DNA from: JBGPLH01 sp041486365 [NCBI: Thermodesulfobacteriota bacterium]
GTDB lineage: Bacteria; JAUYMQ01
Assembly (NCBI GenBank): GCA_041486365.1
Contig: JBGPLH010000170.1
Location: 1 to 7,269, forward strand
DNA length: 7,269 bases
Direction: 5' to 3'
The notes below the pieces were generated by a model. That model saw only the letters and a program-made list of their open reading frames with translations, did no database searches and was not told the DNA's origin. Positions 4,116 through 7,269 of the stretch are shown here, in pieces. A program made the translations under genes and the position numbers. Each line of letters opens with the position of its first letter. Within the stretch, counting starts at the first letter, position 1.

Positions 4116-5273
4116 ATGCGCAACGCAGTGGTGGTGAGCGCCGTCCGGACGGCCGTGGCGCGCGCGAAGAAGGGCTCGTTCATCAACACCCGGATCGACG
4201 ATCTCGGGGCCATCGTGGTGAAGGAAGCGGTGGCGCGCGTGAAGGGGCTCGACCCGGCCGAGATCGAGGACGTGATCGTGGGCTGCGCGATGCCCGAGGG
4301 AGAGCAGGGCGCAAACGTCGCGCGGATCATCTCGCTGCTCGCGCAGTTGCCGCTCTCAGTGGCCGGCACCACCGTGAACCGCTTCTGCGGCTCGAGCCTG
4401 CAGACGATCAACATGGCCGCGCAGGCGATCATGACGGGCAACGGCGACGTCCAGCTGGCCGCCGGCATCGAGCACATGACCCACGTTCCGATGGGCGGCT
4501 TCAGCCCGAGCCCCAACCCGAAGTTCTTCACCGGTGAGTTCCCGCCCGCCTACATCCCCATGGGGATGACCGCCGAGAACCTCGCCGACAAGTACAACAT
4601 CGGCCGCGAGGCGCAGGACGAGTACGCCGCCTGGAGCCACCAGAAGGCGGCGAAGGCGACGAAGGAGGGGCTCTTCAAGAAGGAGATCATCCCCGTCGAG
4701 GTGGAGATCGAGGGACAGAAGAAGCTGGTCACGGTGGACGAGTGTATCCGCCCCGAGACCACGGTGGAGACCCTCGCGGGGCTCAAGCCCGCTTTCAAGG
4801 AAGGGGGCTCGGTCACGGCCGGCAATTCCAGCCCGCTGAACGACGCGGCGGCGGCCTGCATCCTCATGAGCGAGGAGCGCGCCAAGTCGCTCGGCGTGGG
4901 CCCCTGCTTCCGTATCGTGGCGATGGCCGTGGCCGGCTGCGACCCGGCGATCATGGGGATCGGGCCGGTGCCGGCGGTGCAAAAGGTCCTGAAGCGCGCC
5001 AAGATGACCCTCAAGGACATCGAGGTGATCGAGCTCAACGAGGCCTTCGCCGTGCAAAACCTTGCCGTGATCCAGGAGCTCGGGCTGGACCGCTCCAGGA
5101 TCAACCCCCGGGGTGGCGGCATCGCGATCGGTCATCCGCTGGGCTGCACGGGCGCGCGCATCATGGCGACGCTCACCCACGAGATGATCGACAACAACTG
5201 GACGATCGGCATGGAAACAATGTGCATCGGCGGCGGCCAGGGGATCGCCACGATTATCGAGCGGGTGCGCTGA
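4116..5273 (+). CDS. fadA: Thiolase: acetyl-CoA acyltransferase (3-ketoacyl-CoA thiolase, FadA-like)
   Basis: A 385-residue thiolase, close to the 387 residues of E. coli FadA. It cleaves 3-ketoacyl-CoA with CoA to give acetyl-CoA plus a shortened acyl-CoA, the last step of beta-oxidation. Catalytic residues seen: nucleophile C91 in VNRFCGSSLQ; NEAF at 308-311; H340 in GGGIAIGHPLGCTG; and the proton-shuttling C370 in CIGGGQG. The N-terminus (VVVSAVRTAVARAKKG) and the IEHMTHVPMGG stretch also fit the degradative class better than biosynthetic acetoacetyl-CoA thiolases. The ATG follows a very strong AAGGAGG at 4104-4110, 5 nt away, the best ribosome site in the window, which suggests high expression. 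No FadB partner is adjacent. It starts 60 nt after the protease gene and is closed by a terminator at 5299-5328, so it ends its transcription unit. Exact chain-length preference, or use as an acetyl-CoA C-acetyltransferase, cannot be decided here. Confidence 0.93.
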   Translation: MRNAVVVSAVRTAVARAKKGSFINTRIDDLGAIVVKEAVARVKGLDPAEIEDVIVGCAMPEGEQGANVARIISLLAQLPLSVAGTTVNRFCGSSLQTINMAAQAIMTGNGDVQLAAGIEHMTHVPMGGFSPSPNPKFFTGEFPPAYIPMGMTAENLADKYNIGREAQDEYAAWSHQKAAKATKEGLFKKEIIPVEVEIEGQKKLVTVDECIRPETTVETLAGLKPAFKEGGSVTAGNSSPLNDAAAACILMSEERAKSLGVGPCFRIVAMAVAGCDPAIMGIGPVPAVQKVLKRAKMTLKDIEVIELNEAFAVQNLAVIQELGLDRSRINPRGGGIAIGHPLGCTGARIMATLTHEMIDNNWTIGMETMCIGGGQGIATIIERVR

Positions 5274-5458: not shown

Positions 5459-5469
5459 AGTGAAACCCC

Positions 5470-5480: not shown

Positions 5481-6719
5481 ATGGCCGCCAAAGGCCCGGA
5501 GCGCCCGGTCGCGAGCGTCGAGGAGGCGATCGCCGACATCCGCGGCGGCCGGATGGTGGTCCTCGTGGACGACGAGGATCCCCGGAACGAAGGCGCCCTG
5601 GCCATGGCCGCCGGGAAGGTCACGCCCCCGGCGATCAACTTCATGGCGACGCACGGGCGCGGCCTCGTGTGCCTCACGCTCACCGAGGAACGGATGCGCC
5701 GCCTCGCCATCTCGCCCCAGCCCGCGGAGAAGGGATCTCCGCTCTCGGCGTCCTTCGGCGTGATGATCGACGCCCGCAAGGGGACCACGACCGGGATCTC
5801 CGCCTCCGATCGCGCGGTCACGATCCTCACCGCCGTGGATCCGCACTGTCGGCCCGAGGATCTCGTGAAGCCCGGCCATGTTCCACCGCTCGCCGCGCAG
5901 GTGGGCGGCGTGCTCGCGCGCTCCGGGCAGGCGGAGGGCTCCGTCGACCTCGCGCGGCTGGCGGGGCTCGAGCCTGCCGGCGTCATCTGCGAGATCATGA
6001 ACGACGATGGCACGATGGCGCTCTTCCCCGACCTCGTGGCCTTCGCCCGCCGTCACGATCTGAAGATCGTCACCCTCGCCGACCTCATCCGCTACCGGAT
6101 CCAGAAAGAACTGCTCGTCCGGCGGCTCGTGGAGACGACGCTTCCCACGCGCCACGGCGTCTTCCGGGTGATCGTCTACGAGAACGACATCGACCGATTT
6201 CACCACCTGGCTCTCGTGCACCGCATGGAGGGGCGGGCCTTCGATCCCGACGCGCCGGTCCTCGTCCGGATGCACTCCGAGTGCCTGACGGGCGACGTCT
6301 TCGGCTCCTCCAAGTGCGACTGCGGCGACCAGCTCGACGCGGCGCTCCGCCAGATCCGGGAGAGCGAGCGGGGGCTTCTCGTCTACCTGCGGCAGGAGGG
6401 GCGGGGGATCGGCCTGGTCAACAAGATCAGGGCCTACTCGCTCCAGGATCAGGGGCGCGACACGGTCCAGGCGAACGAGGAGCTGGGGTTCAAGGCCGAT
6501 CTGCGCGACTACGGCGTGGGCGCGCAGATCCTCGTCGATCTCGGCGTGCGCAAGATCCGCCTCATGACGAACAACCCCAAGAAGATCGTGGGCCTCGAGG
6601 GATATGGCCTGGAGATCGTGGAGCGGGTGCCGCTCGAGGTCGATCTCACGGACAAGAATATCCAGTACCTGAAGACGAAGAAGGAAAAGCTCGGGCACCT
6701 GCTGAACATCAAGCGTTAG
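5481..6719 (+). CDS. ribBA: RibB-RibA fusion: GTP cyclohydrolase II with a degenerate DHBP synthase domain
   Basis: A 412-residue fusion of the two riboflavin entry enzymes. The C-terminal half (about 205-405) is an intact GTP cyclohydrolase II, which opens GTP to 2,5-diamino-6-ribosylamino-4(3H)-pyrimidinone 5'-phosphate. Zinc ligands are C268, C279 and C281; RQEGRGIGL is about 304-312; Y319 and R342 match E. coli RibA Y105 and R128 in spacing; TNNPKKI follows. The N-terminal half (about 10-200) is a clear RibB fold ([46 protein letters not shown]) but lacks key residues. RENEGD is replaced by PRNEGA (34-39), losing the Mg2+-binding Glu and the Asp, and GHTEA by GQAEG (149-153), losing the Mg2+-binding His. 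E171 is kept. DHBP synthase activity is therefore doubtful, and a separate RibB elsewhere would be expected. It has its own promoter region upstream and is followed 6 nt later by a padR gene. Confidence 0.93.
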
Positions 6720-6725
6720 AAAGGC

Positions 6726-7269
6726 ATGCGCGTGACGGCGACGAAGAGCGTCGGCCTGGCGGCCCGGCCGCTGGGCCCCGTCCACCAGACGATCCTGGGC
6801 CTCATCGTGGAGGAGCCGCGGCACGGCTACCTCATCAAGAAGCTCCTGTGCGAGGGGAACGGTCGTGACTTCGGGATCAACGACGGCCTTCTGTATCCGG
6901 CGCTTGCCAGGCTTGAGCGCGAGGGGCTGATCCGCAAGGAAGTGGTCCATCAGGAGAAGAGCCCCTCGAAGCACACCTACCACGCGACCCGGAAGGGGGA
7001 GGAGGCGTTTTTCCGCTGGCTCATGGACGCCGCGGGCGAGGAGGATCCCTTCCGATACGACTTCTATCTGCGGTTCGGTTTCCTCGTGAAGGCCACCTTC
7101 TTCCGGCACCTCGATCCCCGCGCGGTGCGCCGGAAGGTCGAACGCCAGATCGCCGAGGCGCGTGAGAAGATCCGCGACTTCCGCCGCGTTCGCGAGACGA
7201 TGGAAGTGGGCGAGGTCGACTGGTACCGGCTCAAGATCATGGACTTCGGCGTGGGCTACCAGGCTCTGA
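6726..7269 (+). CDS. PadR-family transcriptional regulator, 3'-truncated
   Basis: 181 residues are seen before the frame runs off the window. The N-terminal winged helix-turn-helix is a clear PadR type: VHQTILGLIVEEPRHGYLIKKL (19-40) carries the PxHGY signature, LLYPALARLEREGLI (55-69) matches the recognition helix consensus GxLYPxLxxLExxGLI, and HTYHATRKGEEAF (83-95) is the wing. The C-terminal part (from about 107, FRYDFYLRFGFL) is helical, as in the PadR dimerisation domain. PadR proteins are usually ligand-responsive repressors of their own operon or of transporters. The gene begins 6 nt after ribBA, so it is almost surely co-transcribed and could control the ribBA promoter; this is inference. 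AAAGG at 6720-6724 is only 1 nt from ATG 6726 but 7 nt from an in-frame GTG at 6732, so the GTG may be the true start. Confidence 0.88.
   Translation, partial: MRVTATKSVGLAARPLGPVHQTILGLIVEEPRHGYLIKKLLCEGNGRDFGINDGLLYPALARLEREGLIRKEVVHQEKSPSKHTYHATRKGEEAFFRWLMDAAGEEDPFRYDFYLRFGFLVKATFFRHLDPRAVRRKVERQIAEAREKIRDFRRVRETMEVGEVDWYRLKIMDFGVGYQAL

Follow-up and report, generated by a model that had tools for sequence, protein, structure and literature searches.

The window, by which we mean the whole 7,269-nucleotide stretch of DNA that we analysed, carries a run of genes that all lie on the + strand. From Pfam matches and open reading frames, these are methylmalonyl-CoA mutase (mcm, 3' end only), a B12-binding domain, MeaB, an MglA-like GTPase, an M50 protease, a thiolase (4116-5273), a RibBA-type gene (5481-6719; 412 amino acids from the ATG, with an alternative GTG start at 5460), and a PadR-type regulator (6726-7268; Pfam PadR, 2.6e-15) that is directly downstream of the RibBA-type gene and runs past the end of the window. 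The RibBA-type gene has both domains within a single open frame: a RibB (DHBP synthase) half (5508-6098; PF00926, 1.6e-72) and a RibA (GTP cyclohydrolase II) half (6120-6716; PF00925, 6.6e-75). Within the window, there is no rib operon around it.

The best full-length RibBA match in each group that we searched was 63-66% identical to the window protein, and the RibA half reached at most 69% identity. In the phylum of genome G004, canonical RibBA proteins were 57-66% identical over their full length. Viral contigs yielded only distant RibB relatives (L001-L014, 38-42% identity), which have an intact metal loop and a G-H-T-E motif. The order mcm-MeaB-MglA-RibBA was found in 6 of 14 loci (L200, L202, L203, L204, L206, and L207), all of which have a canonical RibBA. 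As for the other loci, L201 has no MglA match; L208 is cut by the end of its contig; L205, L209, and L210, which were chosen for their MglA, have no RibBA; and L211-L213, which were chosen for their RibBA, have no MglA. The window has this gene order too, but with the protease and the thiolase between MglA and RibBA. Because the order is common to loci with canonical RibBA, the window's locus was probably bifunctional before. The MglA-like GTPase and the thiolase point to different groups: the former is closest to those of G391 and G374 (63-64% identity), and the latter has its nearest matches in the G368 phylum (64% identity to G368 itself versus at most 54% to the other genomes in that comparison, and up to 68% within the phylum). 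Full or long matches to the thiolase, at 51-68% identity, are present in 37 of the 46 genomes of the G368 phylum, which hints at where the window comes from.

The two halves of the RibBA-type protein

We considered a column to be near-invariant if its conservation across 137 canonical rows was 97% or more, which gave 50 such columns in RibB and 56 in RibA. In the RibB half of the window protein, 9 of the 50 are changed (R34P, E35R, D39A, M80Q, N84K, S95M, F135P, T151A, and R181L). Among the canonical rows, 105 have no changes in these columns and the maximum is 5. So, the claim from the sequence-only reading that RibB has been lost at several active-site motifs is borne out, with Q150 not among the changed positions. 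The acidic metal loop R-E-x-E-x-D is absent: the metal and substrate loop (5577-5597) reads D-P-R-N-E-G-A instead of the usual D-R-E-N-E-G-D, with the changes R34P, E35R, and D39A. S95M lies in S89-A-S-F-G-V-M-I-D97 (5745-5771), which replaces xTAFTVS[IV][ED], and T151A lies in R147-S-G-Q150-A-E-G153 (5919-5939). With the start codon at 5481, the letters and the coordinates of these last two motifs are as that reading had given them.

In our alignment, positions 35 and 39 of the window protein correspond to Glu39 and Asp43 of the DHBP synthase (DHBPS) from V. cholerae. According to the accessible parts of a study of that enzyme (PMC5228156), Glu39 contacts both metals and its mutation abolishes activity, as does mutation of the equivalent Glu in the DHBPS of M. 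jannaschii; Asp43 bonds Ru5P in simulations. The window's RibB half does keep E37, C64, T103, T104, D110, H133, R147, E152, and E171. In its variable columns, identity to the consensus is 0.63 (the canonical mean is 0.67), and the four other dead RibBs that we measured are at 0.28-0.49. As these columns are about as conserved as in working enzymes, the loss looks either recent or selective. The window's RibB half also passes the cut-off of the NCBIfam RibB equivalog (204 bits versus 177.45), and the dead RibBs of paired genomes (see below) fall under it in 4 of 4 cases tested. Given the residues that are changed, we conclude that DHBP synthesis by the RibB half has very probably been lost.

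In the RibA half, just one of the 56 near-invariant columns is changed (R278K); among the 137 canonical rows, 108 have no changes and one row has 9. Identity to the consensus in the variable columns is 0.64, and the canonical mean is 0.61. The three zinc cysteines (Cys268, Cys279, and Cys281; segment at 6276-6326) and the E-G-R-G motif are present, and the protein passes the equivalog-domain cut-offs for RibA as well as RibB. The two halves of the gene have GC3 values of 0.91 and 0.92. The AlphaFold2 model of the protein has a mean pLDDT of 90.6, and a structure search matched it to solved chains of RibB, RibA, RibBA, and RibBX. Among the 50 matches listed, TM-scores on the target were 0.86-0.94 for bacterial and fungal RibB chains and 0.79-0.81 for M. 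jannaschii. These results agree with the earlier view that the fold is kept and that the RibA half is intact. Our best reading of the intact motifs is that the RibA half is an active GTP cyclohydrolase II.

Glutamine at the RibB metal site

The sequence-only reading also took Q150 to be the loss of a second metal ligand. The site that corresponds to the window's G-Q-A-E is G-H-T-E in the RibBs of M. tuberculosis and V. cholerae and in the RibBX of A. baumannii, according to our alignments, and presumably in E. coli RibB as well. However, of 216 unique rows (excluding the window), 195 have an intact R-E-x-E-x-D loop, and of these 174 have Gln in this column and 21 have His; because the rows are relatives of a Gln-bearing query, along with chosen rows (pairs and low scorers), these counts are biased and are not a census. 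When we scanned a species-genome collection with the RibB half and read the motifs in the best 80 of 591 relatives, RibB sites that carry G-Q-T-E but are intact in other respects were found in many Acidobacteriota, Nitrospirota, and delta-type lineages and in some Actinomycetota.

In 27 genomes that we checked, a Gln-bearing RibBA is the only RibB that we detected, and all 27 have lumazine synthase (RibH), which was found in all 42 of the genomes checked overall. These are 3 genomes plus 14 from the phylum of G004 and 10 from the phylum of G391. By "only RibB" we mean a single match to PF00926 (3 genomes) or to P0001 (24 genomes), in genomes whose completeness was not given. In the 15 reciprocal pairs that are described below, the partner with an intact RibB is always Gln-bearing (G-Q-T-E) as well. 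We therefore rejected Q150 as a mark of decay, as Gln is usual both in relatives with an intact loop and in the intact partners of pairs. Of the neighboring changes, the loss of the Thr (T151A) is a real departure, but the final Gly in place of Ala is frequent in Gln-type relatives too. The position itself does matter, since the His to Ala mutant of the V. cholerae enzyme is inactive (accessible parts of PMC5228156). From these comparisons, Gln appears to serve at this metal site in place of His. His is thus not universal at the RibB metal site, and Gln is common among the lineages that we sampled.

Reciprocal pairs and known parallels

In 15 of 15 genomes that we examined, a protein with a dead RibB and a live RibA (as judged from motifs) is accompanied by a protein with a live RibB and a dead RibA. 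In each pair, one protein has a broken RibB loop but retains its zinc cysteines, and the other has lost its zinc cysteines but has the RibB loop intact. Two-protein genomes turned up in the phyla of G004 (148 genomes searched) and G391 (112 genomes searched). The 15 pairs were not sampled at random; Myxococcota-type pairs were chosen for having two listed full-length matches. Together with the window and L208, the 15 pair members make up our 17 rows with a dead RibB and a live RibA. RibH is present in all 15 of the genomes with pairs, and in 4 of the 5 pair genomes from the phylum of G004 (G004, G033, G071, and G107) the dead-RibB gene directly adjoins it. We also looked at 39 low-scoring rows, including three from genomes with multiple matches. 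Among the 36 hand-picked genomes with a single low-scoring match, none had a broken RibB loop (R-E-N-E-G-D is kept in 36 of 36) and two had a dead RibA half.

Some of the other rows show partial changes. L124, L125, and L126 are RibBA-type proteins that are partly degraded in both halves (5-7 of 50 RibB columns and 22-25 of 56 RibA columns), so decay is not always confined to one half. Two of the genomes with such proteins, G018 and G093, have no other match, and in G020 there is a canonical copy (L123) as well. In seven RibBAs (L166, L168, L170, L172, L180, L189, and L191), Gln takes the place of Glu in the C-E-I-M motif, and each of these genomes also carries a copy with a live RibB and a dead RibA. 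This substitution is a possible first step of RibB loss. L172 looks like an intermediate, as its site is partly changed (6 of 50 RibB columns).

It had been suggested that a tree of RibBA proteins might show a clade that shares the window's pattern. Similar dead RibBs do recur in bacteria, but a single RibA-half clade of the window and seven dead-RibB rows (L095, L112, L114, L116, L118, L162, and L186) was rejected (AU test, p = 0.006). A RibA-half clade of the window with just five of these (L095, L112, L114, L116, and L118) had a log-likelihood that was lower by 26.8 (p = 0.087), which falls short of formal rejection. (The tested clades were named after we had viewed the trees.) The window adjoins the dead-RibB group of L095, L112, L114, and L116 (along with L118 and L162) in the full-length tree and in the 96-row tree of the RibA half, and it lies apart from the L095 group in two other trees of the RibA half. 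This could mean that the window protein branched off early from the L095 group, or that its loss is a separate and milder one. L186 and L172 form a separate and well-supported group on the RibA half, which implies at least two origins for dead RibBs.

The parallel that had been drawn to plant RIBA paralogues is a fair one. According to the accessible parts of PMC3509567, Arabidopsis RIBA3 has only GTP cyclohydrolase II activity, and its losses of essential residues are confined to the RibB half; RIBA2 has only DHBP synthase activity. Like RIBA3, the window protein is a fused RibB-RibA that has lost catalytic residues of RibB and has an intact RibA, and 15 further bacterial proteins have this pattern. 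The reciprocal pairs are a bacterial counterpart of RIBA3 and RIBA2. A difference is that the plant retains a bifunctional RIBA1, whereas the bacterial dead-RibB genes are paired with a gene for a live RibB and a dead RibA. The other known parallel is RibBX (from Shewanella, Aeromonas, and Bradyrhizobium), which has RibB activity only and whose dead X domain reportedly has a regulatory effect on RibB in S. oneidensis (accessible parts of PMC10012899). RibBX (as in the A. baumannii structure 6mnz) also descends from a fused RibB-RibA and retains a dead half, but there it is the RibA half that is dead and RibB that works. The window protein lacks that pattern of a lost zinc site and an intact RibB; it would be the mirror image. 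Canonical G-Q-T-E RibBAs share Gln150 and the RibA motifs with the window protein, but they keep R-E-N-E-G-D and T151. Thus, going by its residues, the window protein is a putative RIBA3-type enzyme in a bacterium and a mirror of RibBX. In the accessible parts of the one open-access library that we searched, we came across no account of a RibBA from bacteria that combines a dead RibB with a live RibA, which is not proof of absence.

These pairs form a ready-made natural series in which to test why a dead partner domain is retained in a fused enzyme. One speculative idea, which we would not bet on, is that such pairs arose repeatedly in bacteria and that the two half-dead proteins of a pair form a mixed complex through their conserved dead halves. 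Such a complex would restore the first two steps of riboflavin synthesis and co-regulate them, and the window protein would be at an early stage of this.

Proposed function and alternatives

We propose, with some confidence, that the product of the window gene is a GTP cyclohydrolase II with an ancestral and now non-catalytic DHBP synthase half, with DHBP provided by a predicted second RibB. The RibA half, given its intact motifs, would catalyze the opening of GTP that yields the first pyrimidine intermediate on the way to riboflavin. The RibB half is predicted from the model to keep its fold and probably keeps its dimer interface, so it could serve as a scaffold and possibly as a regulator. 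It would be unable to hold two metals and Ru5P because R34P, E35R, D39A, and T151A would have destroyed the site, as conservation and the published Glu mutants suggest. DHBP would then come from another RibB that is encoded elsewhere in the genome and is most likely of the G-Q-T-E type. Because its RibB site lacks the R-E-x-E-x-D loop, the window protein should not be filed as bifunctional; profile-based annotation would call it bifunctional, which would misplace a step of an essential pathway.

Alternatively, the RibA half might feed another GTP-derived pathway, with riboflavin coming from other genes. In faba bean, the RIBA-type protein VC1 is reported to start the synthesis of vicine (accessible parts of PMC12202586), and the window's gene is surrounded by mcm, B12-binding, MeaB, MglA, protease, thiolase, and PadR genes rather than a rib operon. 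However, canonical RibBAs have a similar neighborhood and no neighbor points to a pterin or nucleoside product, so we consider this unlikely.

Another alternative is that the metal site has been rebuilt and the RibB half is still functional, for example with the metal held by E37, Q150, and E171. Most of the other catalytic positions are retained, the variable columns appear to be under normal constraint, and the protein scores above the RibB equivalog cut-off. But E35R puts a positive charge where the metal-touching Glu sits, D39A and T151A take away further partners, the Glu mutants are inactive (accessible parts of PMC5228156), and no canonical row of the 137 has more than 5 of the 50 columns changed. 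This makes a working RibB half quite improbable.

It is also conceivable that riboflavin is imported and that the gene is being lost. The decay of RibB could be the start of the loss of the pathway, and L124-L126 are examples of decay in both halves. Given a RibA half with 1 of 56 columns changed, a frame that is open over 412 codons, and a GC3 of 0.91 and 0.92 in the two halves, we see little chance of this. Finally, an error in sequencing or assembly is scarcely credible: although we found no close relative (the best full-length identity is 63-66% per group searched), the changes are spread over nine near-invariant positions with no frame shift, and E35R requires two base changes within one codon (from a Glu codon to CGG).

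We also note a match on the - strand of the window (5599-5705) to the Rfam family V_AS9, a Vibrio antisense RNA, which scored 51.8 bits (the cut-off is 50). This match is antisense to the RibB coding region, and conserved ribB coding sequence is probably its source.
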